Shown: positions 8,287 to 29,275 of the stretch, piece after piece
How the letters are laid out: the number at the start of each line of letters is the position of its first letter
Numbering within the stretch: position 1 is the first letter of the stretch
Position numbers and translations under genes: made by a program
The notes under the pieces: generated by a model
What the model was told of the DNA's origin: nothing
The model's database searches: none
What the model saw: the letters and a program-made list of their open reading frames with translations, nothing else
From: Jannaschia aquimarina
GTDB taxonomy: Bacteria; Pseudomonadota; Alphaproteobacteria; Rhodobacterales; Rhodobacteraceae
Assembly (NCBI RefSeq): GCF_000877395.1
Contig: NZ_JYFE01000004.1
Location: forward strand, 1-46,166
Direction: 5' to 3'
Length of the DNA stretch: 46,166 bases

Positions 8287-8460
8287 ACCCATGAGGCTGG
8301 TCGCCGCAAGTTCGCCCAGGCAGGCGCATCCTTCGGACGACAGCCAGCTTCATAGTCTCGATCGACTGAAACCTTGCCTGATCCGACGGAAGCGCCCGGA
8401 TACCGACATCGCGCGGCCGGATCGTGCTAAGGTGCAGTGGGACGACGATATCGCCCTGTC

Positions 8461-9697: not shown

Positions 9698-10834
9698 TCA
9701 TCGCGACTCCCTGGGGATCCGGTAGATCGCGAAGGGCCCGGCCGCCCGCATCTCCTCCAGGCTCGCGGGTTCGCCGAATGGGCCGAGCAGGGCGGTCAGC
9801 TCGCTGTCGGTGAACCACACGGCCCCGTCCGGGCCAACCGAGACGCTGTCGGCCCAGTCGACGTCGCCCCGGGCGACGAGGGTGCGCAGCGCCCCGTCCG
9901 GGCCGAGCACCGCGAGGCCGCCATTCTCGACATCGGTGATGACGGTGCCGCCATCCGGCATGGTCTCGATCCCGTCGCTCGTGGGCCCGGGGCCGACGCG
10001 CTCGACCGCGGCGGCGATTTCGGCGTCGGTCGTCTCGAAATCCGCTAGCAGCGCTGTGGGCACCCGGAACACGCCGTCATGCGTCATCGTCGCGTAGGTC
10101 AGCCAGTCGCCATCCGCCGAGAGGGCGATCCCGTCCACGCCGACCTGGAACGTCACCAGCCCGTAGCCCAGCCTGTAGGGCCGCCCGTCGGTGCGGCGCA
10201 TAACCCAGTCCTGCGGGGCCGTGGTCTCGTGGTCCGTCAGCACCTGCCGCCAACGGTCGCCCTCGGTGTCGAGGACGAGGAGCGCGGCGGCGGTGAAGCG
10301 CAGCAGGCCGGTATCGGCGAGGAACACGTAGCGCCCGTCCGCCGAGACGCGCAGGTCTTGCGCAAAGCCCGCGGTGCCCTCGGGGAACTCGAACGCGTAG
10401 ACGATTTCGCCCGCGTCCGGGTCGAGGGCCAGCACCTCGGTCGGACGGCCCTCCATGGCGCCCGGCCTGACGGCCCAGAGACGGCCCTGCGCGTCGGCCG
10501 TGATGCCGAACACGCCGTGGAGCCGGTCGGCCAGGCCAGGTGCGACCGGGCGCGCGGCGCCGTCCGCCCATTCGAAGACGAGGTGCTCGACATGGTCCTG
10601 GGGTCGGTGGAACGGATGGAGAGTGAAGAATACCCGCCCCTGCGGCGAGACGCTGACCATGCCGGGCGGCAGCTCCGTCTCGATGGCGATCTCGACCGAG
10701 TCCGCAGGGAATGATGGTTCGGTCGCGACGTTCGGGAAGGGCGTGCCCCTGCCGTAGACGATCTTCATGGCGACAAGGCCGACGACCAGCGCGACGACAA
10801 TCAGCCCCGCGACCCACTTCAGAATGCGCAGCAT
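9698..10834 (-). CDS. Membrane-anchored MRJP/yellow-like beta-propeller protein
   Basis: The 378-residue protein has an N-terminal membrane anchor or uncleaved signal (ILKWVAGLIVVALVVGLVAM) and then repeated beta-propeller blades: FGITADAQGRLWAVR, DLRVSADGRYVFLADTG, DGIALSADGDWLTYATMT, DGIETMPDGGTVITDVENG and SVSVGPDGAVWFTDSEL. Block order and the long LLADFETTDAEIAAAVERVG insert match bacterial major royal jelly/yellow family proteins, often labelled dopachrome tautomerase-related. No enzymatic activity can be deduced. Its ATG overlaps the stop of the upstream epimerase gene by one base (TGATG), so the two are translationally coupled. A GTG one codon earlier is also possible. Confidence 0.82.
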   Translation of the reverse strand: MLRILKWVAGLIVVALVVGLVAMKIVYGRGTPFPNVATEPSFPADSVEIAIETELPPGMVSVSPQGRVFFTLHPFHRPQDHVEHLVFEWADGAARPVAPGLADRLHGVFGITADAQGRLWAVRPGAMEGRPTEVLALDPDAGEIVYAFEFPEGTAGFAQDLRVSADGRYVFLADTGLLRFTAAALLVLDTEGDRWRQVLTDHETTAPQDWVMRRTDGRPYRLGYGLVTFQVGVDGIALSADGDWLTYATMTHDGVFRVPTALLADFETTDAEIAAAVERVGPGPTSDGIETMPDGGTVITDVENGGLAVLGPDGALRTLVARGDVDWADSVSVGPDGAVWFTDSELTALLGPFGEPASLEEMRAAGPFAIYRIPRESR

Positions 10835-15891: not shown

Positions 15892-17604
15892 TCAGTCCCG
15901 GAACATCTGCCCCCTGCCGCGCCGGTCTGCGGACGACCTCCGGGTCACCGTACCCGTCGAACTCGGCAACAGGCATGTGCCGATCTTGCACCCGGCCGAA
16001 ACCATCACATCGGTCAGCAACACGCTGAGGCTGCCCCAGCTTACGCCCGTTAGCGCCGCAGTCGCCGCGCATGGCAGACTACCGAAGATCGCCATGAGAA
16101 CGCTCACGAACAACGCGAGGATGACCAGCCAGTTCAAGAGACATCGTAACGAAGCCAGCACGCTGCATGACGTGCTCGTGCGGCAGAAAATGACCCAGAG
16201 CGCCAAGAGGACCAGACCGACGACAGCGGATGCAATCCCCAAACCTGTCACGATCCCATTGCCCGTGCACACGCCGACGACGATCAGAATACCTCCGATA
16301 ATGAGCGCGGTGATCGCTGCGATCAGAAGCCCGTCACAGCCGAAGCCTCCACCGCCACCGCCGCTGGTGCAGCCTTCGAGGCCGATGGCGTTCGAGACCG
16401 TCTGACATCCGGGCGCGGAGGCCTCGACACGCACGCTCGCCGTCGCGCCAGCAGGCACGTCGACCGTGTGGGCCGGGCCATTCGTGGTCGTGTCGATGAT
16501 CCCGTTTATGGTCCAGACATAGGTCCATGGTGGCGGCACCGGATTGGTGACGACGACCGTATAGGTGCCGGGAGGAAGGCATCCGGTACTCAAATCTACC
16601 GCCGCGCCCCCTGCCGCCTGGACGACGAGGTCGAGACCTTCCGGACAAGAGTCCAGACAGGCCTCGAGATCGACGGACCCCGAGAGAAGCGGGCAGCCTT
16701 GCACGACCATCGCCGCTGTCACGTCCACCGCCTGGCCTGCCGCTAGGGTGACCGTCAGCGTATCGGACGTTTCAGGTTCCGACTGCCCGTCGACTGACCA
16801 TCCGATATTCGCTCCTTGGGTCGCGGGGGCCGTGATCTTGATGTCGTAGTCCCCGGATGGAAGGCAAACAACGCTTTCGGGATCAACGACCTGCCCGTCG
16901 CGGCTCACTTCAAATTCAAGCGCCGTCGCGCAATCTCCGCAGACATCCAATGTGCCGACCGGAATTGGGACAGGCGGGCAGCCGTGGGGTTGAAAATCGA
17001 TCAGCGTGAGGAACTTCACCCGGGCGTTAGGGTTCGGTGTAACCATCGGATCGTAGCGGCAAACGTAGGTCTCGGACGCGCTCGCGCCTCCAAGCAGCCC
17101 GATGGACGCACCATCCACCTTCGTGCCACCGGGACCGCAATCGACGTCCACCATGACGCCGGTGTCGCATTGGTTCGACATAAAAACCTTGATGCTGACC
17201 AGCCGACGTCCTTGTGGATCACAGCTTGTAGAGATCTTGTTGGGCGATGCGTCGTCCGCACGGAAATCGATGGTCGGACAGCAAAAACAATTGAGCACCC
17301 GCTCGACCGGATTGGCGCGACATCCTTCGACGGTCGCGCAGCGGCCGTTCACGAAGACCGTCTCATCGCAGCCGCATCCATCGGGCGGCGCGGGAAAGAT
17401 GGCTTCCCATGTGCCGTCCGATTGCATTTCGGCACCAATCTCGGTGAACGGCCCGTCGGCCGAACGGCACGACACGCCGACGATGACCGGACTTCCGCCC
17501 TCGATCTGGTCGGGGGGGCAATCCTCGGCCGTCCCTGTGATCCGAATGCCGGAAAGGGGGTCTCCTAGTCCGAAAACGCCGTCGATCGTGATATTGCAAG
17601 CCAT
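15892..17604 (-). CDS. Unrecognised Cys-rich protein with repeat domains and C-terminal membrane segments
   Basis: I do not recognise this 570-residue protein. Residues 1-110 are Cys-rich (CPPDQ, GCGCDET, LNCFCC). The middle has at least two tandem beta-rich units of about 90 residues, each with a CLPxGxY motif (VVCLPSGDYDIKI and TGCLPPGTYTVVV) and ending in GC plus LEAC or LEGC. A Gly-rich linker (SGGGGGGFGC) follows. Then come about four hydrophobic helices, including LLIAAITALIIGGILIVVGV and LVLLALWVIF, and a basic tail. The layout suggests a surface or envelope protein with disulfide-bonded Ig/PKD-like repeats held by a C-terminal membrane domain. There is no classic N-terminal signal peptide. 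Confidence 0.7.
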   Translation of the reverse strand: MACNITIDGVFGLGDPLSGIRITGTAEDCPPDQIEGGSPVIVGVSCRSADGPFTEIGAEMQSDGTWEAIFPAPPDGCGCDETVFVNGRCATVEGCRANPVERVLNCFCCPTIDFRADDASPNKISTSCDPQGRRLVSIKVFMSNQCDTGVMVDVDCGPGGTKVDGASIGLLGGASASETYVCRYDPMVTPNPNARVKFLTLIDFQPHGCPPVPIPVGTLDVCGDCATALEFEVSRDGQVVDPESVVCLPSGDYDIKITAPATQGANIGWSVDGQSEPETSDTLTVTLAAGQAVDVTAAMVVQGCPLLSGSVDLEACLDSCPEGLDLVVQAAGGAAVDLSTGCLPPGTYTVVVTNPVPPPWTYVWTINGIIDTTTNGPAHTVDVPAGATASVRVEASAPGCQTVSNAIGLEGCTSGGGGGGFGCDGLLIAAITALIIGGILIVVGVCTGNGIVTGLGIASAVVGLVLLALWVIFCRTSTSCSVLASLRCLLNWLVILALFVSVLMAIFGSLPCAATAALTGVSWGSLSVLLTDVMVSAGCKIGTCLLPSSTGTVTRRSSADRRGRGQMFRD

Positions 17605-17835
17605 GTCGCGTCACTTTCCCCGATGGATGTTGTCGCCGATCGCTCAGTTCGCGGGATTATCGGCCACCAAGGGCATGGCGGCCTTTGCCCGGAGCGCGTC
17701 GGAATCAGCGGATGGCGCTTGAGTGGTGTCGCCTACCGGAAACGCCGTTCCGCCCCGATGAGAAGCCGCCCGTGGCGCACCCACTCGGCCCGACGCGCAA
17801 TGCCTTGGAGCTCGTCCACCCGGCGGCGCGGGCTG

Positions 17836-18969
17836 CTAGAATATTCGCTCGATGGGCTGGCCCAGTGCCATGGCGCCTGCATACTCGGCCTGAACCTCTT
17901 TCTGGAGCGGGTGGTAGCGCGCAGCTTGAATGTCTCGAAATTTGCGTTCGAGTTCGCTCTTTCGGTAGAAGCCGACACCCCCCGCCAGTTCCATGGACAG
18001 CTCCACGACACGGATCGCGTTCTCTTCGACGAGGCGGCGACCGATCATCACATCGTTTATCGTCTCGGCCGATGGCGAGTCGCGCTCGACGGTCGCGATC
18101 ATATGCTCATGAGCCAAGCGCGCTGCGGTCAACGCCGTATCCATTCTTCCGGCGATCGACTGTCTGCGGTGCGACACCGGCTTCATTCCAGCGAGGCCAA
18201 TCGCGATCTCCCGGGCACTCTCAGCGATGCCCAAATAGACGGAATAGATCAGCGGAAAGGCAATTGTGGCGATCATCTGGAACGCGAGATGCCACTCGCC
18301 GGCTTTGCGCTTCAGCGCGATCTTGTCGTCTGCGACGAAAAACCCGTCGATCTGGATGTCGTGCGATCCGGTCCCGCGCATCCCCATGGTCCGCCAAGTG
18401 TCCAGCACGGTGACTTCGGGCGCGGCGAGCGGCACCGCGAAATGTAGCACGGTGTGGTCGCCGTCCTCCTCGAGGATCGCTCCAGTCACCAGAAGATCGC
18501 CGGCCGGCGCTCCCGATGCGAAGGCCTTGTGCGCCGTGATCCGGTAGCCGCCCTCGATCCTTTCAGCCGTTCCCGACCCGTCGATCCAGTCCGATCCGCC
18601 GGAGCTCAGGAGAACGATGTTCTCGTCCGCCACGCGGCGCAGGAGCGGCTCGACCACCGGGCGGGCCGTAGGCTGCTGGTGCCAGCGCCAGGCCGGTATC
18701 GCGACTTGGTGGGTGTGCATCGACAGGGCGAGCCCGGTTGAGCCGCATGCCCCCGAAATGACACGCAACATCTTGCAAAGCGCTCGGACATCGGCGCCGC
18801 CACCGCCGAGCTCCCGGGGCACGCCAGCGGAAATCAGGCCGACATTCTTGAGATCTGCATAGTTGGCCTCGACAAACCTGTCGTTCTCGTCGCTCTCGGC
18901 TGCTCTTTTCGCGAATGTCTTCGTGAGCCTCCCGGCGATCTCTCCGACGTCGACCGATGTCACATCCAT
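17836..18969 (-). CDS. Acyl-CoA dehydrogenase family protein
   Basis: The 377-residue protein follows the acyl-CoA dehydrogenase fold: an N-terminal helical domain (NYADLKNVGLISAGVPRELG), a middle beta domain (DWIDGSGTAERIEGGYRITA, then ASGAPAGDLLVTGAI and WRTMGMRGTGSHDIQIDGFF), and a C-terminal four-helix domain ending RDIQAARYHPLQKEVQAEYAG. WRTMGMRGTGSHD and the AxxxPLQ end are common in the subset acting as flavin-dependent dehydrogenases or monooxygenases (DszC/HsaA-like), so desaturation of acyl-CoA is not certain. The start at 18969 is a choice; an upstream GTG at 19053 is possible. It is divergent from the GNAT-like gene. Confidence 0.86.
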   Translation of the reverse strand: MDVTSVDVGEIAGRLTKTFAKRAAESDENDRFVEANYADLKNVGLISAGVPRELGGGGADVRALCKMLRVISGACGSTGLALSMHTHQVAIPAWRWHQQPTARPVVEPLLRRVADENIVLLSSGGSDWIDGSGTAERIEGGYRITAHKAFASGAPAGDLLVTGAILEEDGDHTVLHFAVPLAAPEVTVLDTWRTMGMRGTGSHDIQIDGFFVADDKIALKRKAGEWHLAFQMIATIAFPLIYSVYLGIAESAREIAIGLAGMKPVSHRRQSIAGRMDTALTAARLAHEHMIATVERDSPSAETINDVMIGRRLVEENAIRVVELSMELAGGVGFYRKSELERKFRDIQAARYHPLQKEVQAEYAGAMALGQPIERIF

Positions 18970-19177
18970 GATCTTTTGTATTTCCACGACGCAATCTCCC
19001 AAGTGCGAAACATTGGTCAGCGTCGCGGTTCGCAAACGAACAAGATAGTCCACGGACTGTACCGAAGAGCGGCCGACAGATCGAACTCCCCTCTCCGGCA
19101 GATCGACGCTTGGAAAGGGCCTTTGGGGATAGGCGGTGGGACGTTCCGCCCGTCACTCGTCGTGCTATGGCTGGCGC

Positions 19178-20170
19178 ATGTCCCCCGCCCCCTCCGATCC
19201 AAGCGCGTGGCCTTCGTTCGCTCATCAACTGGCGCTGGCCGAACGCCTCTACGGTTCGCTCGGTCGGCGGCGGGTCGAGGATTGGCTCGGTACGCAGGTT
19301 GGGCGCATCGGCAGCGCGGAGTTCGCGCGGCTGTTTTCGGACCACATCGACCTGCCGGGCGTTGCACCGTTTGACTACGCGCACCGCCACGTGCGGGTGG
19401 GAGGGCGCTCTCTGATCGGGGGCATCCGCTTCTACGGGCACGACATCGAGCGCCCGTTCGTGGAGGTGATCGCGCACGACTTCGCTGGCTCGGAAGGTGG
19501 GGCAACGCGCTTGGGGCCCGAAAGCCTTGCAAAGCTGGCGGACGCGGTCGCGTCCGAGTGGTCCGCGTTCGGTCCCCTCCACATGCGCCTTCGCGTTCCT
19601 CCCGATGCGCCCGTTCCCCCGAACGCTCACATCGACACGCATGTGTTCGTCGCCCGCTACAGCGACATGGCGCCCCCCGACGGCCGCGTGCGACTGACCG
19701 CATTCGCGGACCCGGACGAGGCCATGGCGATGGTGCGCGAGCGCTTCACTGTTATGGAGCGGGACGAGCCCGCCCTTCGGCGCAACGTCTCCCCCATCGA
19801 GCCGGACTACCTGACCGAGCTGCACGGGGAGGGCCGTGTTCATGCGATCGTTTCGGCCGCGCTCGGACGAGCGAGTGGCGAAGCGGAAGAGAACCTCGGT
19901 GCCCCCGTTGGCCTCCTCGCCGTCGCACCGGGTGGGGTGGACTGGATTGACGGTGACGAGGTGATGGAGGAGGTCGTCACGGTCGAGCACGCGGGGCATG
20001 GCTACGCGGCGTCCGCCCAAGCCGCGTTCGCCACCCTGCCAGGCAATGATCCGACCGCACTTCTCGTCGGCACGATCGACGTTCTGAACGTCGCCTCCCG
20101 CCGCACGGCCGAGCGGGCGGGGCGTGCGAACGTCATGGACTACCTATTCGTTGACCTGCCAACCGTTTGA
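19178..20170 (+). CDS. GNAT-like N-acetyltransferase domain protein
   Basis: The 330-residue protein has an uncharacterised N-terminal half (LALAERLYGSLGRRRVEDWL and further) and a C-terminal part resembling GNAT acetyltransferases: EEVVTVEHAGHGYAASAQAA, with GHGYA in the position of the acetyl-CoA loop, then LLVGTIDVLNVASRRTAERA and GRANVMDYLFVDL, the typical beta5-alpha4 asparagine/serine/arginine region. The substrate is unknown. The start is taken at 19178 rather than 19136; neither has a clear ribosome site. Repeat copy E follows 42 nt after the stop. Confidence 0.65.
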   Translation: MSPAPSDPSAWPSFAHQLALAERLYGSLGRRRVEDWLGTQVGRIGSAEFARLFSDHIDLPGVAPFDYAHRHVRVGGRSLIGGIRFYGHDIERPFVEVIAHDFAGSEGGATRLGPESLAKLADAVASEWSAFGPLHMRLRVPPDAPVPPNAHIDTHVFVARYSDMAPPDGRVRLTAFADPDEAMAMVRERFTVMERDEPALRRNVSPIEPDYLTELHGEGRVHAIVSAALGRASGEAEENLGAPVGLLAVAPGGVDWIDGDEVMEEVVTVEHAGHGYAASAQAAFATLPGNDPTALLVGTIDVLNVASRRTAERAGRANVMDYLFVDLPTV

Positions 20171-20212
20171 TAGGGTGCAGATCTTGAACGCGCTCGCTGC
20201 CGTTCCGGACGG

Positions 20213-20279
20213 GTCTCATCGGGTGACGCCGACCGAACCGACCCTGACGAAACAGGGCTGACCTGTCTTGCGGGCATAC
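20213..20279 (+). repeat. 67-nt dispersed intergenic palindromic repeat, copy E
   Basis: It begins GTCTCATCGGGTGACGCCG, contains ACGAAACAGG and ends GGGCATAC at 67 nt. The sequence before it, GCTGCCGTTCCGGACG, is shared with the copy at 25933 (GCAGCCGTTCCGAACG), extending homology about 23 nt to the left. It lies directly upstream of the metallopeptidase operon. Confidence 0.82.
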
Positions 20280-20351
20280 CCGGCTGCGACGTTCGCGTTT
20301 AACGATCTGATGCCGCTGCGCCGGGTTGGTGGACCTGCTACCTAGTCTTCC

Positions 20352-20381
20352 TTGCTTTCCCACGACGAAGGGAGCTTTAAT
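20352..20381 (+). promoter_or_regulatory. Candidate promoter of the metallopeptidase operon
   Basis: TTGCTT (20352-20357), an 18-nt spacer and TTTAAT (20376-20381) resemble a sigma-70 promoter. The -10 element overlaps the ATG of the 14-codon leader frame at 20380, so both cannot be used as drawn unless transcription starts upstream. Weak call. Confidence 0.3.
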
Positions 20382-20424
20382 GTCAGGGTGTCCATCAAGT
20401 TATCCGAACAATCCTGTAGTGTAG
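20380..20424 (+). other. Short leader reading frame abutting and in frame with the first operon gene
   Basis: AAGGGAG precedes ATG at 20380 with 5-nt spacing. The frame encodes MSGCPSSYPNNPVV and ends in TAG at 20422-20424, immediately followed by ATG at 20425. The leader and the gene at 20425 are in the same frame, and the latter has no ribosome site of its own. Either this is a leader peptide for translational coupling or the gene once started at 20380 and now carries an amber codon. Confidence 0.45.
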
Positions 20425-20799
20425 ATGGCGGAAGAAAGAGTGCTCCGGGATTTGGTCGATCCAGCAGTTACTGATACCGATGAGTTGCTGCGTCGTCTTG
20501 CCGCCGAAAATCCGCAGTCCAATGCGTTTCCCGGCGATCAAGTGCGGCAGGGCAAGGCGATGCTCATGAGCTGGCGGTCGCAACTGCAGGGGGCGATTTG
20601 CGGGAAGGACCGGATCGCCAGCCACCCGGCGGTGGCCGGAACCGACAACGTGAACGACATGGTTGCCCTAGCGGCGCTGGTCGCGGCTGAAGTGCCGACC
20701 GTCATCGGCTCAGGCATCAACAAGATGCTCATTGCCGCCTTGGTCGTGCGGATCGGTATCCGGAAGTTCTGCGACGGCTATGACCCGATTGACCCCTGA
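20425..20799 (+). CDS. Small accessory protein 1 of the metallopeptidase operon (unknown family)
   Basis: I do not recognise this 124-residue protein. The N-terminal part is helical and charged (DTDELLRRLAAEN, DQVRQGKAMLMSW). The C-terminal 50 residues are hydrophobic with a Glu, Gly and final Cys (ALVAAEVPTVIGSGINKMLI, then VRIGIRKFC). That C-terminal pattern is echoed in the other small protein of the operon (23263-23664), where a Glu and a Cys are about 27 residues apart in a similar hydrophobic stretch. Its 3' end overlaps the first metallopeptidase start by 20 nt, so the two are coupled. It may be an adaptor or regulator of the proteases. Confidence 0.7.
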   Translation: MAEERVLRDLVDPAVTDTDELLRRLAAENPQSNAFPGDQVRQGKAMLMSWRSQLQGAICGKDRIASHPAVAGTDNVNDMVALAALVAAEVPTVIGSGINKMLIAALVVRIGIRKFCDGYDPIDP

Positions 20800-22039
20800 G
20801 CGCATCGAACGGGTTTGGGCGGAGGCCGCCGCAAAGTATGGCCTCGACCCTGTGGTGAACGACCGGCGCGCGAGCGCGGCGCTGTTCCGGCAGCCCTACG
20901 ACCTGGAGAGTTTGCCGGCAACCCTAGCGGCCATGGAGATCGTGCGGGAAAAGACGCCGGCCTTCTTCGACGCTCATGACTATGATTGGGCCTTCGGACC
21001 TGCAGTTTGGCAGAAGAGTCTCGAGGCCAACTACCAATCCAGATCGTTCCAACATCTCTCGATGCTCCATCGATCTCCCTTTCGAGACCCTGCCTGGCAG
21101 CTCGACAAGGTGGTCGTGCGCTATGCGTTTCAGACCGATGCGCTGACCGCATCGCCGTTTCATCTCGAGCATGACGGGCTGCACTTCATCACTGTGCCTT
21201 TCGTTTTCAACGAGACGTTGATGCTGCTCTTCGCGGCCTTCCTTGAGACGATCGGCGGCCAAAGCGTAGGATGGGCAGCCCTCGAAGAGGGTGACGGTTC
21301 AGGCGATGGAACGCGTATCTCGTCTTATCTCAAGCATCTACTCCTGCGCATGTTGACGACCGACGGCTTTCATCCGTCAGTGCCCGGAGAGCCGCCCATG
21401 GACGTGGTCAAGCGCGAGGTGGCGTGGTTCGCCGATGCCGAGGAGGTTGAAGGAGCGCCCGGCCCACTTAGGGATCATCTGACCATGTCGTTGGTCGACT
21501 ACGCACTGGCCCATGAGCTGGGCCACCGTCTGCTTGATCATCGCGGCGTAACGCGGCTTGCTGATCTGGATGCACGTGTTGCGGCGGAGATTCATGCCGA
21601 CCGAGTTGGGTTTCATCTCTTCACCACGAGCTGGGGCTGGCGTGACGAGTTGATGGATGATGCGCCCTTGGGCCAACTTGCGCGGATCATGCTAGGCCCG
21701 CTTGGCTTCGCCATCTTTGAACGCTGGTATGCGGGCGCACTGTCGGGTCTGGCGGCGGCATGCCTGAAGGCCGGAGTCGAACCGGGGTTCGATCTGGCGA
21801 GCCTGGAGACCAGACGCCAGGAATCCGAAGCCCGGATGCGCGCGACATTCGAGGCAATGGCCACTCACCAAGCGCAGAGCATCGCCAAGGGCGCGTCTTT
21901 CACGGAAGACGACAATCGCCGGATTGATCGGCTCACGCGACGTATGGTGGCGTTCCTGGGCAACATTCTGCAGCAGGCGGGTTCGGTGCCACCGGAAGCT
22001 GTCCGGCGTGCCCGCAGGGTCACTGAGCCTCTGATTTGA
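20780..22039 (+). CDS. Putative zinc metallopeptidase 1 (HELGH, Lit/M48-like motif pattern)
   Basis: The 419-residue protein has a zincin motif H245-E-L-G-H249 in VDYALAHELGHRLLDHRG, followed five residues later by H254, and then E270-I-H-A-D274 as the likely third metal ligand region. The remainder matches no family I know. No signal peptide or membrane helix is present, so it is probably cytoplasmic. The HExxH...ExxAD order resembles gluzincins such as M48 and the phage-exclusion protease Lit (U49), but this is motif-level only. It overlaps the small gene before it and precedes the second metallopeptidase by 27 nt. The start is set at 20780 by position; no ribosome site is visible. Confidence 0.72.
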   Translation: MTRLTPERIERVWAEAAAKYGLDPVVNDRRASAALFRQPYDLESLPATLAAMEIVREKTPAFFDAHDYDWAFGPAVWQKSLEANYQSRSFQHLSMLHRSPFRDPAWQLDKVVVRYAFQTDALTASPFHLEHDGLHFITVPFVFNETLMLLFAAFLETIGGQSVGWAALEEGDGSGDGTRISSYLKHLLLRMLTTDGFHPSVPGEPPMDVVKREVAWFADAEEVEGAPGPLRDHLTMSLVDYALAHELGHRLLDHRGVTRLADLDARVAAEIHADRVGFHLFTTSWGWRDELMDDAPLGQLARIMLGPLGFAIFERWYAGALSGLAAACLKAGVEPGFDLASLETRRQESEARMRATFEAMATHQAQSIAKGASFTEDDNRRIDRLTRRMVAFLGNILQQAGSVPPEAVRRARRVTEPLI

Positions 22040-22066
22040 GTAACCAAGGGATCATTAGAGCAGTAG

Positions 22067-23200
22067 ATGTCGAAGGCTGACAACAAAGGGCGTTTTGTCA
22101 GTATCTTCCAGTCGGATTTTGCGACTTCCGTGTTTGCGGACGTCCGGTCCGATGCGCTGCGACTGGCTGTCGCCAACTTCCGGATGTCGGCGGCCGCGGC
22201 GCTTACCGAGATCAAGAAGATGTACGATTTTCCGCGAGATGCAATCGTTGAGCTAGGGCTGTCGGAAGAAGGTGCCTTGAATGCACGCGCTCGCTACGAT
22301 CCTGATACCGGGCACTATCGAGTCGAGTTTACGACCGGGTACTTGCTTTGGGCGGTTATCGTGGCCGGCTATCTAGCTCATCTTGTTCGTTCGGAGTTTC
22401 GGACCGAACGACGCCTCACCCTGTCTTTCAAGGAGTTCGAGGAAGATCTCAAAACGCTTGGTGCGCAAGAGATTTTGAACGGAGCAATTCCAGAGATTCC
22501 CCGGGAGATCGAAGGTAGCTTCTTGTTCTTCTTCGAGTCCGTCTATTTGCCTGTCCTGTTCCATGAATGCTCCCATGTCGTGCGCGGTCATTTGCCATTG
22601 CTCCGACGATATCGGTCGCAAGCGGGTCTGTGCGTTTTGGATGAGTTGATGGTACGCCGCGTTGGAGAGACGTCGAAGGCCTTCCCCTTGCGCGATGTCG
22701 AAGTGGATGCCGACATCTTCGGTGCCAGCCTTTCCAGCGAGTTTGCCTTCGCGCGATCATCCCATCTGGGCCGTTGGCGACACATGACTGGGAAGGAAAA
22801 CCTGTTTGCTGAGTTTGTCGGCTATGCGCTTTTCGTCGCCGGGCAGGAGCGGCAAGCTAAGGAACTCGTCGGGAGCAGCGTACGATATCCGTCGCCGCAA
22901 TTCCGTCTGATCATCCATGGCGTCGGTCACCAAGCACGCTGGATCAAAGAAAATCCAAGCGGCAACTACTTCGAGGACGTTCTCACACCCGGCTTCGAAC
23001 TCTTGGCTCCGTTTGAACCAGCTTTCCCGGAAATCGACATCTTCCGGGACATTGCCGACGGGTCGGAGTCTTCGGACCTTAGGCGCGAAGTTGATCAATA
23101 CTTCGCGCGCACCGCTGCAGAGCCGGACGGCATCATCGCAAAACAAGCATTGACCTGCCTACGGGATGATCCGCTACCGTCTCATCTCGGCCTGCTGTGA
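22067..23200 (+). CDS. Putative zinc metallopeptidase 2 (HECSH)
   Basis: The 377-residue protein carries H166-E-C-S-H170 in VYLPVLFHECSHVVRGH, with H175 at the same offset as in the other three proteases, and E212-V-D-A-D216 in RDVEVDADIFGASL. The N-terminal 150 residues include a hydrophobic stretch (GYLLWAVIVAGYLAHLV) and acidic helices. No signal peptide is evident. Overall sequence is strongly divergent from metallopeptidase 1, but the spacing of the metal-site residues is conserved. It lies 27 nt after the preceding gene. The DNA is visibly less GC-rich than flanking genes, suggesting transfer. Confidence 0.72.
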   Translation: MSKADNKGRFVSIFQSDFATSVFADVRSDALRLAVANFRMSAAAALTEIKKMYDFPRDAIVELGLSEEGALNARARYDPDTGHYRVEFTTGYLLWAVIVAGYLAHLVRSEFRTERRLTLSFKEFEEDLKTLGAQEILNGAIPEIPREIEGSFLFFFESVYLPVLFHECSHVVRGHLPLLRRYRSQAGLCVLDELMVRRVGETSKAFPLRDVEVDADIFGASLSSEFAFARSSHLGRWRHMTGKENLFAEFVGYALFVAGQERQAKELVGSSVRYPSPQFRLIIHGVGHQARWIKENPSGNYFEDVLTPGFELLAPFEPAFPEIDIFRDIADGSESSDLRREVDQYFARTAAEPDGIIAKQALTCLRDDPLPSHLGLL

Positions 23201-23262
23201 GCTGGTCGGAAAAGTAGTTTGTAGCACGGCTAAACGCTAACACCCGCACTGGAGATCAACGC

Positions 23263-23664
23263 ATGATCGTCGAGGAATATTTTGATGAGAGCTCATTGAA
23301 AGTGACCATTAATGAAAGCATGCCCGACTTAATCGATGCTGATTTACCCGCTATTGCCGACCGTTTTGCATCTGAGATGATGGGAGATAGCCTTGGCTTG
23401 GCGCCGGGAGACCTGTGGCAGGCGTTCAAATCAGAAATGTACCTTCTAGTCTGTACCGACGACGCCAAGTACAAAGCTTTGAGAGAAGCAGCTGCACGCC
23501 ACACGAAGAAGTCTCAAGTTCCGCTGCTGTCCGCGATCGCGGTATTCGTAGGATCGGAAATCGGCGTGGAAGCTGGTTTGTTGTCACCCTACGTGGCGCT
23601 TTTCTTTGCGTGGTCAATGAAGGTCGGGAAGGAATCAGCATGCCGAGCGATCGGCGCGTCGTGA
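23263..23664 (+). CDS. Small accessory protein 2 of the metallopeptidase operon (unknown family)
   Basis: The 133-residue protein is acidic at the N-terminus (EEYFDESSLKVTINESMPDL), has a central CTDDAKYKALREAAARHTKK segment and ends in a hydrophobic region (LLSAIAVFVGSEIGVEAGLL, then VALFFAWSMKVGKESAC). The end resembles that of small protein 1 in pattern. It overlaps the start of metallopeptidase 3 by 25 nt. Codon use is clearly AT-richer than elsewhere in the window. It could be an effector-associated or inhibitory partner for the proteases; this is inference from position and size only. Confidence 0.72.
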   Translation: MIVEEYFDESSLKVTINESMPDLIDADLPAIADRFASEMMGDSLGLAPGDLWQAFKSEMYLLVCTDDAKYKALREAAARHTKKSQVPLLSAIAVFVGSEIGVEAGLLSPYVALFFAWSMKVGKESACRAIGAS

Positions 23665-24758
23665 TGCAGGATCAGGCAGCCGAGGACTTCAAAGCATTTG
23701 CAAAACGCTATGGTGGAGTCTTCGATCTGCGCGCTTTCGACCACCCATCTTCGCCGCAACGTTGGATTGGTGAAATCCTCGGTGGACTGGAGACACTGAC
23801 GCGCTCCTATGTGGGTGACCGGAATGGGCGAGGGGAGGCCTACGCCGCGGAAAGCGGGCTTTTCGAGAACATGGAGGTGAACGGTGCAGCGTCGCGCCGG
23901 TCGTCCGGCTATCTGTTCGGAATGACTCTTGGCGTTCCTCTGCGCCTCGCGAACGCAACTTTGCTGCTGGCGCATGACGAAGCGTTCGAACCTCGGACAA
24001 CGGCTATCGATTATCTGCTTTCTGCACCGCCCTCCGCCGAGGACCCGGAGGGTTTCGAGGCGGTGATCATGGAAGCCGCAGATCCGCAGGCACTAGCATG
24101 GTCGCGTTCGATGACCTTTTTTTCGGTCGGGTTTGTCTGGATGCACGAAGCCTTTCACACGCTGATAGGCCATGTCGATTTCGCTCGCGATATTCTAGGG
24201 CTCGACATGGACGAGTTGAGCCTGACGGCCAACGATCCCTTTTATCATGAAGTGCTTCAGGCAATGGAACTCGATGCCGACGGTGCGGCACTAACGAACT
24301 TCTGTCTGACGGTCGCCGGACGACCGCGATTTGGTATTTGCGCCGACGGTAACCTTGATCCCCCCTACCGTGTGGCACAGGCTGCGGAAGGGGCATTTAT
24401 CGCTTTGGCCGCAATAGAAGGTCGCCGCAGTGCGTTGACGCATGCAAGCGAAACCTCTCACCCTTGGCCCAGCCGAAGGATCGCCTCGGCACGCGGCCTG
24501 CTTTCGACCTTCGAGCGCCGTGGTCACCTGCCGAAGGGAACCATGGTTGAGTTGGCCCGGCGGATCGAACGCCTTCTGCCACATATCCAAAACCCACAGA
24601 TCCTGTCGCTACTGTCAGTTCTGACGACCGACGGCAAAGTCGCCGAGGGAGATGCGGGGCGCTTAAGCGAACTGATCCAACTTGGTCGGTCTGAGTTGAA
24701 GGTCTTCGAGGAGACCTCCTTCGCACCACGTGTTCGGCTGAACGGGCCATCGAACTAG
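23640..24758 (+). CDS. Putative zinc metallopeptidase 3 (HEAFH)
   Basis: The 372-residue protein has H169-E-A-F-H173 in GFVWMHEAFHTLIGHVDF, H178 at the conserved offset, and E210-L-D-A-D214 in LQAMELDADGAAL. The C-terminal 150 residues are helical and without recognised domain. GAAGGA just before the ATG at 23640 supports this start; an in-frame ATG at 23664, overlapping the stop of the small gene as TGATG, is the alternative. It is tightly linked to the next metallopeptidase (23 nt). Confidence 0.74.
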   Translation: MPSDRRVVMQDQAAEDFKAFAKRYGGVFDLRAFDHPSSPQRWIGEILGGLETLTRSYVGDRNGRGEAYAAESGLFENMEVNGAASRRSSGYLFGMTLGVPLRLANATLLLAHDEAFEPRTTAIDYLLSAPPSAEDPEGFEAVIMEAADPQALAWSRSMTFFSVGFVWMHEAFHTLIGHVDFARDILGLDMDELSLTANDPFYHEVLQAMELDADGAALTNFCLTVAGRPRFGICADGNLDPPYRVAQAAEGAFIALAAIEGRRSALTHASETSHPWPSRRIASARGLLSTFERRGHLPKGTMVELARRIERLLPHIQNPQILSLLSVLTTDGKVAEGDAGRLSELIQLGRSELKVFEETSFAPRVRLNGPSN

Positions 24759-24781
24759 GTAACAGAAGGAGGCGATCCGGC

Positions 24782-25807
24782 ATGGGTTGGAAGGAACACC
24801 CATACGCGCTGGCAGCGGGCGGCGCAGTGAGCCTTATCGATCAGACTGACCATGGGTGCCCTGCTTTCTCGGTAGCCGCTCAGGCTCTTGAGCAGAACCG
24901 TTCCTTCATCGCTAGGCACAAGCTGGGCGGGCCGGACTTCGAGATTTGGCTATTGCCGAGTTCCCTGAAAGCCAACGCCCGCGCGTTCGATCTTGGTGCG
25001 GTGGGCGCCGTGTTCATACATGGCGGACTGCTGACAAGACTCTGGGATGCACTGGCGCGCGTTGTTGCGGGATCGGTCTTTTTGGCGAGCCGTTTTGCGT
25101 GGAAACGGCCGGGACCCGATGCGGACGTCCCCGGCGGGCCATGGGTCGTGGCGAACGACAAAAGGTCGGCCTACTTTTTGGAGGCCTTTGGGCGAGCAGT
25201 AGAGTTCGTCATTTTCCATGAGATCGCGCATCTCCGTCGGCGTCATGTTCGGCGCTACCGCGATGCGTCCGGTCACGACTTTATCGATGAGGCCTTCGGA
25301 ATGGCCTCAGAGGCCGTGGTGGGTTCGAAGCTATTGCAGCTTTTGGAGTTCGATGCCGACGCGACGGCGCTTGAGATGTGCTTGAACGCTACCTCGTGGT
25401 TTCGCGCGGAACGGGGCGAGGGATCGAGCGCACTGGAACCAGACCACCTCACCAGCGAGCTTTTTCTTCGGCTCCTGGCGGGCCCCGTGACCTTTCTTGC
25501 TCTAGATCTGGATGCAGAGCAGTCAGCCGTAAGCTACCACGGGCAACATCCTCCGTCAGTTCATCGTGCAATGCGCTATACGTTGCTGTTGGGAGACACC
25601 ATCCGCTCTTTGTCGGTCGAGTCCGACATCGAGCCGTTCGTCGATCAGGCATGGACCGAACTGGGTTTTCTGGCCCGACGATTAGGTGTCAATGGCGGTC
25701 GTTGGCATCATCGACGGGACGAGCTTCTTGCGTTCGAACAATTGAACCGGATCGCCGACGAAGCGAATGCATTCTCTCGGGCGATCGATCGTGAGATGTC
25801 GTCTTAA
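24782..25807 (+). CDS. Putative zinc metallopeptidase 4 (HEIAH)
   Basis: The 341-residue protein has H146-E-I-A-H150 in AVEFVIFHEIAHLRRRH, H155 at the conserved offset and E189-F-D-A-D193 in LQLLEFDADATALEM. This is the member closest in motif style to Lit-like/U49 peptidases as I recall them. The N-terminal part has DFEIWLLPSSLKANARAFDL. No export signal is present. AAGGAGG upstream gives it the best ribosome site of the operon. It is the last gene; a repeat copy follows 126 nt after the stop and no clear terminator was seen. Confidence 0.75.
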   Translation: MGWKEHPYALAAGGAVSLIDQTDHGCPAFSVAAQALEQNRSFIARHKLGGPDFEIWLLPSSLKANARAFDLGAVGAVFIHGGLLTRLWDALARVVAGSVFLASRFAWKRPGPDADVPGGPWVVANDKRSAYFLEAFGRAVEFVIFHEIAHLRRRHVRRYRDASGHDFIDEAFGMASEAVVGSKLLQLLEFDADATALEMCLNATSWFRAERGEGSSALEPDHLTSELFLRLLAGPVTFLALDLDAEQSAVSYHGQHPPSVHRAMRYTLLLGDTIRSLSVESDIEPFVDQAWTELGFLARRLGVNGGRWHHRRDELLAFEQLNRIADEANAFSRAIDREMSS

Positions 25808-25932
25808 GAATAAACTGAGCAGCTAGATCGAAGCATACAGCATCCTGCGCAGAGCCGCATACCTTGCTCTGGCGAAGTCGCTCGTTTCAGGGAAGTGCAC
25901 TTCGGCGACGCACTCGCAGCCGTTCCGAACGA

Positions 25933-25999
25933 GTGTCATCGCGTGACGCGGCCGGAGCAGACCCTCCCGAAACAGATCCACCTCGTCACCGGATCATAC
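25933..25999 (+). repeat. 67-nt dispersed intergenic palindromic repeat, copy F
   Basis: It begins GTGTCATCGCGTGACGCGG, contains CCGAAACAGATCC and ends CGTCACCGGATCATAC. The first and last 16 nt can pair at about 13 positions. It lies between the convergent metallopeptidase operon and azlD. The preceding GCAGCCGTTCCGAACG matches copy E. Confidence 0.83.
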
Positions 26000-26031
26000 G
26001 CCAGCAACACGGTTTGCCGGGACGCCTGTAA

Positions 26032-26334
26032 TTAGATCGGGAGCAGGCTGCCAATCGCGATGAAAGCACCTACTCCGATGGCCATGGTGAGGATCACGTG
26101 GTTCGACCATGCGGCGACCGCGACCGCGACGGCAGCCGCAAGCCACGCTTGAGGTGATGCACCCGCCAGGGACGAAGCCACGAGCGCCACGACTAGGCAG
26201 CCTGGCAAGTCATGCAGAACAGCGCGCAGGGCTGGACGGCGCTCGACCGCGTCGCCGATGAACAGGCCGGTCAGACGGATCGCGAACGTGCCCGCTACGA
26301 GCAGACCGATCAGCAGCCATTGCGCCTCGGTCAT
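26032..26334 (-). CDS. azlD: AzlD-type branched-chain amino acid transporter subunit
   Basis: The 100-residue protein has three to four hydrophobic segments (LLIGLLVAGTFAIRLTGLFI, CLVVALVASSLAG, VILTMAIGVGAFIAIGSLL) and the FAIRLTG and LPGCLVVALV motifs typical of AzlD. With AzlC it forms the AzlCD exporter for branched-chain amino acids in the inner membrane. Its start overlaps the azlC stop by 4 nt. Confidence 0.9.
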   Translation of the reverse strand: MTEAQWLLIGLLVAGTFAIRLTGLFIGDAVERRPALRAVLHDLPGCLVVALVASSLAGASPQAWLAAAVAVAVAAWSNHVILTMAIGVGAFIAIGSLLPI

Positions 26335-27035
26335 GACGGGCGCTCCGGCGCGGTGCCCGCGCGACCGGCCGCCGCCAGACGCATCGCGCCCGAAACGATG
26401 ACGCCCACCGCAGCCCCCCCGAGGATCGCGAACGCGCCTTCCACCTCGAACCGAACCAACACGGCCGTCGCCGCAAAGCTCGATGCGAACGGCAGGAGGT
26501 CGCGACGACCGCGCCACAGGCCGCGCGCCATGGCGATGAAGGCAGCCGTGAAAGCGAAGCCGATGCCGTAGCCCGTAAGATCGGGGACGCCCGCCCCGAT
26601 CCATGCGCCCAGCACGGTGGAGCCGGTCCACATGGCGACGACCATCAGACCCGAGCCGATCAGGAAATCCGCGTCGACACTCGGATCGCGGGCACGCTCG
26701 GACATGGTCAGCGCCCAGTTCTCGTCGGCGGTGACGTGAACGGCGAGCAGCTTCTTCATCAATGGCGTCGCACGTAGGACCTCCGACAGGGACGCCATGA
26801 TCCCGAGACATCGCAGGTTCAGCGCCATCCCCGCCACCACCGCGCCCGCAACCGCGCCATTCGCCGCGAACTGATCCACCGCGGCGATCTGAGACGATCC
26901 GGCGAAAACGCCGACACTCATCAGCCCGACCCCCCATGCCGGAAAGCCGACCTGAGCCGCCAGCACGCCGAAGGCGAAGCCGTAGACGGCTGCTCCGATG
27001 CCGAGAGGGAGGATAAGGGTTGCGCCGCGCCACAT
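26331..27035 (-). CDS. azlC: AzlC family branched-chain amino acid permease
   Basis: The 234-residue protein is a polytopic membrane protein with the AzlC marks GATLILPLGIGAAVYGFAFG, VGVFAGSSQIAAV, LNLRCLGIMASL (AzlC-type NLRH/NLR region) and VTADENWAL. It forms an exporter with AzlD. The start is taken at 27035; an upstream ATG at 27104 would add 23 residues that do not resemble the family. It is divergent from an Lrp-type regulator, the classical control arrangement for azlCD. Confidence 0.9.
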   Translation of the reverse strand: MWRGATLILPLGIGAAVYGFAFGVLAAQVGFPAWGVGLMSVGVFAGSSQIAAVDQFAANGAVAGAVVAGMALNLRCLGIMASLSEVLRATPLMKKLLAVHVTADENWALTMSERARDPSVDADFLIGSGLMVVAMWTGSTVLGAWIGAGVPDLTGYGIGFAFTAAFIAMARGLWRGRRDLLPFASSFAATAVLVRFEVEGAFAILGGAAVGVIVSGAMRLAAAGRAGTAPERPS

Positions 27036-27134
27036 ATCGAGACCTATAGCCGGGGCGAACGATGACGTTGTATCGAGAATACGTCTGCGGTGATGATGAT
27101 ACATCAGGAAAGCGGCGCGGAGGGCGTATCGAGA
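27035..27134. promoter_or_regulatory. Divergent azlC/Lrp promoter region with three TATCGAGA boxes
   Basis: TATCGAGA occurs at 27035-27042, 27071-27078 and 27127-27134, all in the same orientation, within 100 nt between azlC and the Lrp-type gene. Repeated boxes spaced over a divergent promoter are what an Lrp-family octamer would need; binding is inferred. Confidence 0.4.
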
Positions 27135-27136
27135 TC

Positions 27137-27589
27137 ATGGATACCATCGACCGCAAGCTTCTAGCACTGATGCAACGAGATGCGCGCACGTCCATCCGCG
27201 AGCTCGCTGACAAAGCTGGTGCATCCACCGCCTCGGTGCAGCGCCGCCTAAAGCGATTGCGCGAAGACGGCACGATCATGTCCGAGGTCGCGGTGGTCGA
27301 GCCGAAACGCGCGGGCTTCGGCCTTACCGCGCTCATCGCCGTGGAACTGGAACGCGACGGTCCCGACCGCGTGGATGCATTCAAGCGGCGGGCCATAGCC
27401 GAGAATCAGGTGCAGCAATGCTACTGCGTGGCCGGCGATACCGACTTCGTCGTCATCGCCGTCCTACGCGACATGGAGGATTACGAGGCGTTCACAGCGC
27501 GCTTCTTCGAAGACCCCCACGTCCGCCACTACCGCGCGTCCATCGTGGTCAGCCGCGTGAAGACAGGAAGCGCAATCCCTCTAAGGTAG
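27137..27589 (+). CDS. Lrp/AsnC family transcriptional regulator
   Basis: The 150-residue protein begins MDTIDRKLLALMQRDARTSI, the typical Lrp opening, followed by the helix-turn-helix (LADKAGASTASVQRRLKRLR, EDGTIM) and an RAM ligand-binding domain (FGLTALIAVELE, QQCYCVAGDTDFVVIAVLRD). The start at 27137 matches family length; an upstream in-frame extension to 27062 is not needed. It is divergent from azlCD, which it probably activates in response to branched-chain amino acids. Its 3' end overlaps the convergent cNMP-binding gene by 61 nt. Confidence 0.92.
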   Translation: MDTIDRKLLALMQRDARTSIRELADKAGASTASVQRRLKRLREDGTIMSEVAVVEPKRAGFGLTALIAVELERDGPDRVDAFKRRAIAENQVQQCYCVAGDTDFVVIAVLRDMEDYEAFTARFFEDPHVRHYRASIVVSRVKTGSAIPLR

Positions 27590-27960
27590 GTGGTCCTCAT
27601 GGGCATACGAGAGGAAAACGCCGACATCACCGCCGCGCGGAACGACTGGTCCGAGTCGAGGAGCCGATGGAAAGCTTCGGCGGGAATAGCGACGGCTTCG
27701 AGGGCCCCTTCCGCATAGCCCCATGCGCCATATGGTCGCCCGGTCAGAAGGCACGTCGTCGTCATCACGCATCCCTCCCCCGGTCCGAGCCGATAGAGCA
27801 CGACGACACGTCCCGAGAGTGCAGTCTGTTCCACGCGAACGGACCCGGAGAGCGGGACGAGATAGGCCTGCCCCTCGTCACCCGGCGCGAAGAGACGCGT
27901 TCCATCCGCGGCCGATATCCTTCGGCCGTGAGCCGAGACGAGGCGGGCGAGATCGGTCAC
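27529..27960 (-). CDS. Truncated Crp/Fnr-type cyclic nucleotide-binding domain protein
   Basis: The 143-residue protein has a recognisable cNMP-binding beta-roll (LFAPGDEGQAYLVPLSGSVR, VVVLYRLGPGEGCVMTTTCL, and AVAIPAEAFHRLL) and the start of the dimerisation helix (FRAAVMSAFSSRM). It then ends without the helix-turn-helix expected for a Crp/Fnr regulator (usual length about 220). The last 61 nt overlap the 3' end of the Lrp gene, so the DNA-binding half has probably been lost by a rearrangement. It starts with GTG overlapping the ArsR stop. It may act as a domain-only regulator or be non-functional. Confidence 0.65.
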   Translation of the reverse strand: MTDLARLVSAHGRRISAADGTRLFAPGDEGQAYLVPLSGSVRVEQTALSGRVVVLYRLGPGEGCVMTTTCLLTGRPYGAWGYAEGALEAVAIPAEAFHRLLDSDQSFRAAVMSAFSSRMPMRTTYLRGIALPVFTRLTTMDAR

Positions 27961-28325
27961 TGCGGCGCGCAGAACACGGCGTAGAGCGCGGCCATCAGCG
28001 CCCGCGTCTCGGCGTCAGCCAGGCGATAATGGATCGTCTGGCTCTCCCGGCGCGTGGCGACCATGCCGGAGGCGCGCAAACGGGCGAGATGCTGGGACAA
28101 TGCGGACTGGGACAGGCCGATCTCGCGCTGGAGCGCGCCAACCGAAGCCTCGCCGGTGCCCTCATGCTCCAGCTTGGCGAGGTGGCAGAGGATCAATAGC
28201 CGCTTGGGGTTGCCAGCCTCGGCGAGGCGGGCGGCGACGTGGCCGGCCTTCGCTTCCAGCTCGGACAGGGAAGGCGACTCGGGCAAGGCGATATCCTGTA
28301 TATTAGATTTGACTGATAAAGACAT
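27957..28325 (-). CDS. ArsR-family persulfide-sensing repressor (SqrR/BigR-like)
   Basis: The 122-residue winged-helix protein has NPKRLLILCHLAKLE, then LQREIGLSQSALSQHLARLR and VATRRESQTIHYRL. Cys47 (LILCHL) and Cys119 (VFCAPQ) match the two cysteines which, in SqrR and BigR, form a polysulfide bridge in response to reactive sulfur and release DNA. The neighbouring operon of YeeE/YedE, persulfide dioxygenase, rhodanese and SulP genes fits this regulator. It is divergent from that operon; an inverted repeat lies at its start. Function by family, not tested. Confidence 0.9.
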   Translation of the reverse strand: MSLSVKSNIQDIALPESPSLSELEAKAGHVAARLAEAGNPKRLLILCHLAKLEHEGTGEASVGALQREIGLSQSALSQHLARLRASGMVATRRESQTIHYRLADAETRALMAALYAVFCAPQ

Positions 28326-28337
28326 CTCTTATATGTA
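28299..28337 (+). promoter_or_regulatory. Promoter and candidate SqrR/BigR operator of the sulfur operon
   Basis: TTGACT (28309-28314), a 17-nt spacer and TATGTA (28332-28337) form a good sigma-70 promoter toward the YeeE gene. Imperfect arms TATATTAGA (28299-28307) and TCTCTTATA (28325-28333) straddle the spacer, where a repressor would block polymerase. The region is AT-rich compared with surroundings. Confidence 0.55.
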
Positions 28338-28385
28338 TCGGGTAAAGGGCGTCCTAGCAAGGTCGGCCGATCCGAGGAGAAAGAC

Positions 28386-28832
28386 ATGCCACCCATCACA
28401 CCTACCGGATCCACGCCCCTCGCTTCCCTCACGGGTGGCATCCTGATCGGCATGTCGGCCGTGATGGTGATGGTGCTCTTCGGTCGCATCGCCGGAATCG
28501 CCGGGATCACGCGTGGGGCTGTGGGCATGTCAGGGGGCGGCGACTGGGGGTGGCGATTGAGTTTCATAGCCGGGTTGATCGCTGCGCCGGTCCTGGTTGG
28601 AACCGTCGTCAGGCCGGTGGAGCAGACCGTCTCTGCCAATCTGCCGATGATGGCGGTCGCGGGCCTTCTGGTGGGCACGGGTGTCGCGCTCGGCTCGGGC
28701 TGCACGTCCGGCCACGGGGTCTGCGGCCTGGCGCGGCTATCAGTCCGCTCGCTGGCCGCCGTGTCGACCTTCATGGCCGTGGCCGCCTCGACGGTCTTCG
28801 TCCTACGCCACCTGATCGGGAGCCCGGTCTGA
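28386..28832 (+). CDS. YeeE/YedE family sulfur-transport half-protein 1
   Basis: The 148-residue membrane protein has about four helices and the conserved YeeE/YedE loop GSGCTSGHGVCGLARLSVRS with its two cysteines. Such proteins (TsuA, PmpA-like) move thiosulfate or other sulfane sulfur species across the inner membrane. GAGGAG lies just before the ATG. Its TGA overlaps the ATG of the next half-protein (TGATG), and the two together equal one full-length transporter. Confidence 0.9.
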   Translation: MPPITPTGSTPLASLTGGILIGMSAVMVMVLFGRIAGIAGITRGAVGMSGGGDWGWRLSFIAGLIAAPVLVGTVVRPVEQTVSANLPMMAVAGLLVGTGVALGSGCTSGHGVCGLARLSVRSLAAVSTFMAVAASTVFVLRHLIGSPV

Positions 28833-29275
28833 TGCGGGTGGTTCTGGGTTTTGCTGCCGGGCTCCTGTTCGGCGTGGGTCTCGTGGTCTCTGGCATGTCG
28901 GACCCGGCGAAGGTGCTGAACTTTCTCGACGTCGCCAATTGGACCACCACCTGGGATCCGAGCCTTGCCTTCGTGATGGGCGGAGCGAGTGTTACGGCCT
29001 TTGTTGGCTACCGCCTCGCCTGGCGCAGGTCCGCGCCCGTGCTAATGGACGACTTCGACGTCCCCTCCTCCACCGCCGTCGATCGCCCGCTGCTGACGGG
29101 GGCCGCGCTGTTCGGCCTGGGTTGGGGCATCGGCGGCTTCTGCCCCGGCCCCGCCTGGACCGCCCTGCCGCTGATGGCGCCGGGCACCCTCGCCTTCCTG
29201 CCCGCGATGCTGTTCGGCCTGTGGCTCGGCGGGCGGGCCAAGGCCTCTCCCCTCTTCGCCGGAGCCTCTGCATGA
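28832..29275 (+). CDS. YeeE/YedE family sulfur-transport half-protein 2 (DUF6691-like)
   Basis: The 147-residue membrane protein begins MRVVLGFAAGLLFGVGLVVS, has GMSDPAKVLNFLD and ends with the second conserved Cys loop, GIGGFCPGPAWTALPLM. It matches the second half of YeeE/YedE transporters (PmpB-like). Translationally coupled to half 1 and, by ATGA overlap, to the MBL hydrolase that follows. It probably imports or exports sulfur for the persulfide pathway. Confidence 0.9.
   Translation: MRVVLGFAAGLLFGVGLVVSGMSDPAKVLNFLDVANWTTTWDPSLAFVMGGASVTAFVGYRLAWRRSAPVLMDDFDVPSSTAVDRPLLTGAALFGLGWGIGGFCPGPAWTALPLMAPGTLAFLPAMLFGLWLGGRAKASPLFAGASA

Follow-up and report, generated by a model that had tools for sequence, protein, structure and literature searches.

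Four divergent M48-like zinc proteases in one Jannaschia aquimarina operon: a candidate mobile conflict system

What role might be played by four different zinc proteases whose genes stand side by side in one bacterial operon? The question is raised by a stretch of 46,166 nucleotides (nt) from Jannaschia aquimarina (contig NZ_JYFE01000004.1, positions 1 to 46,166), referred to here as the window, in which six tightly packed genes of the + strand, A to F, span positions 20425-25807. Four of them (B, C, E and F) encode zincins and two (A and D) encode small proteins. Our preferred answer, to which we give about an even chance, is that the operon is a mobile conflict system of sporadic occurrence, directed most likely against phages, whose effectors are several diverged cytosolic M48-like zinc proteases. 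The layout agrees with the initial annotation of this DNA, which had described four adjacent, divergent zincin genes for proteins of 341-419 residues, two interleaved small proteins, short or overlapping gaps and a base composition poorer in guanine plus cytosine (GC) than the surroundings. A overlaps B by 20 nt and D overlaps E by 25 nt, each small gene overlapping the start of a protease gene; the remaining intergenic gaps are 27, 62 and 23 nt. The GC content is 0.584 over the operon versus 0.672 over positions 1-20170 plus 26001-46166. The start of the span, formerly put at 20380, is moved 45 nt downstream to the first ATG used here.

Each of the four proteases carries HExxHxxxxH followed by ExxAD, the whole motif spanning 30-51 residues. 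As background, 273 other mechanically called open reading frames (ORFs) of at least 200 amino acids (aa) were taken from the window and 13 fetched loci, with overlapping frames kept; 17 proteins that belong or are related to the clusters were left out of the count. Of the 273 ORFs, 11 contain HExxH and two the extended motif (from loci L037 and L058, both fetched as profile matches). Just two other ORFs of the window contain HExxH; they lie on the - strand and lack the extended motif. Chance is not a reasonable account of four adjacent extended motifs, and the proteins are presumably active proteases. A third motif, [HY]PxPxxR or, in F, HPPSVHR, is found downstream of ExxAD in C, E and F and is absent from B; we take it to resemble the 'HP...R' of M48 enzymes.

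The four proteins had been called soluble and different over most of their length. The latter is correct, yet some of them are related to one another. Indeed, in blastp comparisons among the six proteins with composition correction off, F matches E with an expectation value (E) of 2.2e-4 and C with 1.7e-4 (E-C 0.8, F-B 0.19), which on sequence grounds indicates that C, E and F share a distant ancestor. Solubility fits the same three, since none has a 19-residue segment with a Kyte-Doolittle hydropathy of at least 1.6, but B has two such segments, overlapping, at positions 136-137. Profiles built without the window members and searched against 190 ORFs recover F at 1.4e-33, C at 3.9e-25 (a single-sequence profile) and E at 1.2e-4, and every match of these profiles carries HExxH. 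The profile of a further family, X, recovers B at 0.0016.

Table 1. Features of the operon and its flanks (window coordinates)
Feature	Position	Strand	Description
Left copy, 81-nt direct repeat	20175-20255		Flanks operon; copies 77% identical
Gene A	20425-20799	+	124 aa; hydrophobic C-terminal half; 3' end overlaps gene B
Gene B	20780-22039	+	419 aa; HELGHRLLDH...EIHAD from residue 245; most divergent zincin; without [HY]PxPxxR
Gene C	22067-23200	+	377 aa; HECSHVVRGH...EVDAD and YPSPQFR
Gene D	23263-23664	+	133 aa; moderately hydrophobic C-terminal segment; relative of PADLOC PDC-M35B
Gene E	23640-24758	+	372 aa; HEAFHTLIGH...ELDAD and HPWPSRR
Gene F	24782-25807	+	341 aa; HEIAHLRRRH...EFDAD and HPPSVHR; member with clearest orthologs
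Right copy, 81-nt direct repeat	25895-25975		Partner of left copy at 20175-20255

Related proteases are clustered in other genomes as well, so that the neighbourhood is partly conserved elsewhere (in Salipiger and in the genomes G1023 and G266). When 394 genomes of the family were searched with a profile, seven gave a match at E 0.001 or better, the J. aquimarina genome being one of them. Among the six others, G1023 and G266 hold clusters, G965 a locus cut by a contig end, G1038 a short remnant-like frame, and G1059 and G1115 single genes. The G1023 locus (L032) encodes four proteases with the full motif and a 563-aa HESHH protein. In tblastn comparisons with the window it holds orthologs of F (4.8e-28) and C (1e-24, 30% identity) and an E-like protein (7.7e-8); its X protease is encoded on the opposite strand, and genes for a regulator-like protein and a 2OG-Fe dioxygenase are interposed. 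The HESHH protein (L032 12222-13910, - strand), encoded between the E-like and C genes, lacks ExxAD and belongs to no convincing Pfam family. The G266 locus (L033) encodes three proteases, namely an F ortholog (7.8e-22), an E-like protein and a third, HEFAH protein (L33x) on the other strand. The F and C orthologs of the two loci are 27-30% identical to the window proteins. The HEFAH gene together with an overlapping gene for a 115-aa hydrophobic protein occupies L033 6810-8211, about 1.2 kb from cas9. Of 13 listed relatives, 12 retain the full motif, as do all four proteins of the window. Ten of these 12 come from the clusters of Salipiger, L032 and L033, which contribute 11 of the listed relatives, and the other two are the lone proteins of L034 and L036; the one relative without the full motif is the HESHH protein.

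Other searches point to the same sporadic distribution. With F, two of 196 genomes of the order are matched, its own included, the other match being short and off the active site; with C, three of 337 class genomes at E 0.01, again with its own, the others (L008 and L009) being weak and carrying internal stops. A wider profile (A8) matches 11 of 76 relatives of G1023, G1023 included, and in the regions taken from two of the new ones, G980 and G671, a single protease each was noticed. The wider profile also yielded two lone HExxHxxxxH proteins, one with YPHPLVR and without ExxAD (L057 9612-10583, - strand), the other with ExxAD (L058 4925-6454, + strand). No plasmid copy was found by tblastn with B, C, D, E, F and three L032 proteins (A was not searched), and no viral copy in IMG/VR with C, F, B and E singly or with the alignments A4 and A6.

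The case for mobility comes from Salipiger thiooxidans DSM 10146, which provided the one relative among 27 pattern matches in a contig search with C. This genome carries C (truncated), D, E and F, whose proteins are about 95% identical to those of the window (C 95% over residues 158-377, D 95%, E 96%), and a profile search of it found those three proteases (the C part, E and F) and no others. At the DNA level 3,357 nt are 96% identical, the similarity ending at window position 25900. The Salipiger C lacks its 5' part and lies beside a transposase-like gene, which we take to be IS5-like. The copy reads as the product of a recent horizontal transfer. Between the two genomes, the ratios of nonsynonymous to synonymous substitution (dN/dS, NG86) are 0.28 for the C part, 0.14 for D, 0.17 for E and 0.27 for F, so that C to F are under purifying selection and the genes look maintained. 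The 81-nt direct repeats that flank the window operon were considered as attachment sites. A search of its own genome with the left copy gives six matches, including the query and not including the right copy; the five further ones measure 55-109 nt and share 76-96% identity with the left copy, with contigs C23, C1, C30 and C63 involved. Because the repeat is thus dispersed through the genome, an attachment-site role is unlikely.

Why, then, an anti-phage role? Known defence genes lie near two of the four multi-protease loci, those of G1023 and G266; at the window and in Salipiger, where few neighbours were scanned, none was recognised. The neighbours compared with PADLOC were nine G1023 and G266 proteins and one Salipiger protein, all hand-picked after ORF reading. 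Five of the nine have strong matches (ThsB 3.6e-114, Aga_REase-PNTD 3.9e-175, pAgo_I 4.5e-185, PD-T7-1 4.7e-122 and Cas9 7.8e-89), and three of the nine, like the Salipiger protein, have none. A KAP NTPase adjoining the F ortholog shows partial matches, the best to QatA at 3.9e-19. In G266, 1.2 kb separate the end of cas9 from the first protease gene. On contig 36 of G1023, positions 3768-8802 of locus L059 are densely occupied by a ThsB-like TIR protein, a short Argonaute with its restriction endonuclease partner, and PD-T7-1. This gene context makes an anti-phage role plausible. The initial annotation had thought a defence role conceivable and called for a search for conserved co-occurrence in other genomes and in defence islands; nearby defence genes were found, among hand-picked neighbours, for the two divergent clusters and not for the window copy.

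Several findings weigh against a mobile anti-phage system. Since the neighbours were hand-picked and had no matched control, what they establish is proximity, not enrichment. The four defence matches of G1023 end 9.3 kb or more from its F ortholog, the Salipiger genes have insertion-sequence genes and unrelated genes as neighbours (by ORF reading), and no defence gene was recognised among nine window neighbours scanned with Pfam, one of them also with PADLOC. L032 and L033 are not single operons, each having a protease on the opposite strand and L032 unrelated interposed genes; relatives also occur alone (L036, L037, L057 and L058). A two-protein E-like profile scores three other proteases above the window E (1.2e-4), so the orthology of E to L032 and L033 proteins is not established. 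With B as query, the 190 ORFs yield no other zincin and only an unrelated ORF at 0.057. Finally, a structural model of F (see below) has no fold match in the PDB at E 0.001 or better. As to the nine window neighbours, six belong to ordinary families (acyl-CoA dehydrogenase, AzlC, Lrp/AsnC, cNMP-binding, ArsR and pyridoxamine oxidase-like) and three to none. A 570-aa cysteine-rich protein with a C-terminal part that reads as hydrophobic is encoded at 15892-17604 (- strand), also without a Pfam family. An upstream 344-aa gene was tried as a synteny marker for the genus and rejected; it is matched in just two of 14 genus genomes, its own included, and therefore no empty site is demonstrable.

M48 enzymes are common in proteobacteria, and the cluster might consist of duplicated housekeeping quality-control proteases of M48 type, arisen in tandem and without a conflict role. 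We regard this as very improbable. It draws on the M48-like motif layout, a comparison already made in the initial annotation, and on a profile of the four cores, which at E 0.01 finds seven class genomes besides its own among 210 searched; five of these loci have an HExxH frame and the proteins of four, each in a different genome, look like M48 peptidases by sequence reading. Yet none of the four window proteases passes a cut-off in Pfam and NCBIfam scans: F scores 18.5 bits with Pfam M48 (PF01435), where the gathering cut-off is 20.3, and B, C and E have no match, while the X protein of L034 passes it with 22.1 bits. No housekeeping or mobile-element family passed a curated cut-off for the operon's proteins, though D matches phrog_31150. 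Tandem duplication of a housekeeping gene also sits poorly with the sporadic occurrence (seven of the 394 family genomes, counted as above), the low GC together with recent transfer to another genome, the position of such clusters near defence genes in two cases, and the absence of a strongly hydrophobic segment from C, E and F.

A structural model of F, computed with AlphaFold from a 10-sequence alignment (pLDDT 70, pTM 0.80), predicts three strands, a helix, an HExxH helix at residues 127-152 and an ExxAD helix at 182-211, an order that we take to be typical of such enzymes. In a library of viral structures it matches the uncharacterised phage protein A0A8S5NTQ9 (E 5.7e-7, TM 0.62). The second match in this library (BFVD) is a phage M48 protein with a probability of 0.96 but E 0.29 and TM 0.26/0.44. 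The corresponding model of B was unusable (mean pLDDT 45); in PHROGs, B matches an entry of unknown function at 0.0052 and a metallo-protease at 0.034. Searching the PDB by sequence with F and E gave matches at E 0.1 or worse only, with unrelated names. Because F misses the M48 cut-off and no PDB entry is matched at E 0.001 or lower, the window proteases are called M48-like rather than M48 members, a designation made at the level of sequence.

Zincins of the ImmA/IrrE type cut repressors, antitoxins or partner proteins, and the window proteases might do the same, the cluster being a set of accessory or control proteases of a mobile element. This is the main rival because some relatives adjoin regulator-like genes and one lies near a conjugation-like gene, though we consider it unlikely. 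The X-family proteases of L032 and L034 are encoded tail-to-tail with regulator-like genes of 255-277 aa. The L036 relative is tail-to-tail with a gene that has a weak HTH_31 match (0.039), and about 4 kb from a gene resembling, by sequence reading, a VirD4-type coupling protein. The protein L33x has a sub-threshold match to Pfam M78, and the metallopeptidase-like ShdB of Shield offers a precedent for a negative regulator (PMC10270631). In the window operon, however, no helix-turn-helix family is matched in Pfam or NCBIfam, and a reading of the ORFs in 17500-29000 revealed neither an integrase nor a conjugation gene. Control of one repressor would need no set of divergent proteases. Moreover, homology between the regulator-like proteins of the several loci is not convincing: in a three-sequence comparison those of L032 and L036 match at 6e-4, and that of L034 matches nothing significantly, including the L032 protein. 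The genes concerned in L032 and L034 lie at 9366-10196 and 8772-9536, respectively.

What of the small proteins? A and D share their size, a hydrophobic C-terminal half and the overlap with a protease gene. They are not supported as paralogues, since block-shuffling A 500 times produced 28 sequences that equalled or exceeded its score. Their 19-residue hydropathy maxima are modest (A 1.84, D 1.65), and membrane insertion is therefore a guess. A has no match in Pfam, PADLOC or NCBIfam and only chance-level ones in PHROGs, at 0.05 (a tail protein) and 4. D matches phrog_31150, of unknown function, at 1.9e-9, and no copy of D was found in phages. The PDC-M35B component of PADLOC, to which D is related, occurs in one of 292 order genomes (its own) and in two of 398 phylum genomes (its own and G484). 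The D-like gene of G484 has no directly adjoining protease gene; a HELGH protein, ArdC-like by reading, is encoded 1.7 kb off.

The small proteins could instead be substrates of the adjoining proteases, which would release a peptide or a membrane segment from them. VMAP and FtsH ternary systems in which a zincin is paired with a small diverging protein are described in PMC7159879. Precursor processing would suit the A-B and D-E overlaps, the 115-aa hydrophobic protein whose gene overlaps a protease gene in L033, and the HELGH protein at some distance from the G484 D-like gene. It is quite unlikely, given that this last gene has no protease directly beside it, that D, at 95% identity in Salipiger, is not fast-evolving there, and that no small partner was noticed among the listed non-overlapping L032 ORFs of at least 70 aa.

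Returning to an anti-phage system of several proteases, one may imagine the following mode of action. A and D, whose genes run into those of B and E, would serve as membrane anchors or inhibitors and thereby keep the proteases in an inactive state, either complexed or bound at the membrane. Infection would free or activate the proteases, each of which would then cut a different host or viral protein, and the phage cycle would not be completed. Several paralogues may widen the range of triggers and substrates and make escape harder. A more far-reaching proposal, which we hold tentatively and find somewhat doubtful, is that the operon represents an undescribed class of immunity, a team of divergent zinc proteases, each with a trigger or a substrate of its own and some of them partnered by a small membrane protein, inherited as a single mobile module among Rhodobacteraceae-like bacteria. 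Protease effectors known from bacterial immunity are few. If the proposal is true, the three or four diverged zinc proteases kept together across distant loci would amount to combinatorial proteolysis; new proteases would become available, and their substrates may mark host functions to which phages are sensitive.

How does the operon compare with known systems? By motif, all four window proteins share HExxHxxxxH and then ExxAD with M48 enzymes (HtpX, BepA and Ste24). They differ from these in lying below or far from the family cut-off with no family matched beyond the core, in the lack of a strongly hydrophobic segment in C, E and F, and in genes clustered in threes or fours. A predicted M48 zinc peptidase is part of the tested RRDM defence island of enteropathogenic Escherichia coli (RptR, a type I restriction-modification system, DarTG and M48); in the portion of PMC12255303 at hand it is a single peptidase with no role shown, and it is set beside the window proteins by description only. 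ShdB of Shield II and III is likewise a metallopeptidase-like protein inside an anti-phage system, likened here by description only. As described in PMC10270631, ShdB regulates ShdA negatively and probably degrades its partner, and a structure search by the authors found it M15-like. An operon of several such proteases is not described in the open-access texts, as far as these were available (PMC12255303, PMC6393860, PMC10270631, PMC7159879, PMC8195603 and PMC9069715), and may be in print elsewhere; in the same literature no paper was found for PDC-M35 or for Lit with EF-Tu.

With PDC-M35 the operon shares the B component, D matching it at 1e-11 over residues 51-129; it differs in that A, B, C, E and F have no PDC-M35A match in a scan up to E 10. 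One PDC-M35A model (216 positions) matches widely at E up to 1, including in 11 of 14 control genomes; its two matches in the own genome are both on other contigs. The best matches of the window proteases in PADLOC-DB 2.0.0 are those of F to Lit (4.7e-4) and of E to peptidase_U41 (0.067), a model that L33x matches at 3.4e-7. None of the four window proteases thus has a strong match, and surveys resting on PADLOC would probably miss them. Lit (U49), which cleaves EF-Tu, is a zincin example among immunity proteases and acts as a single enzyme. The likeness to Lit noted in the initial annotation holds for a 26-residue stretch at the active-site helix of F (residues 134-159 in the PADLOC match; the L033 F ortholog matches the same model at 0.011) and for nothing beyond. 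Membership in the Lit family was accordingly rejected, the NCBIfam Lit score being 13.4 bits versus 274. Lit is one gene, whereas the window operon has four proteases.

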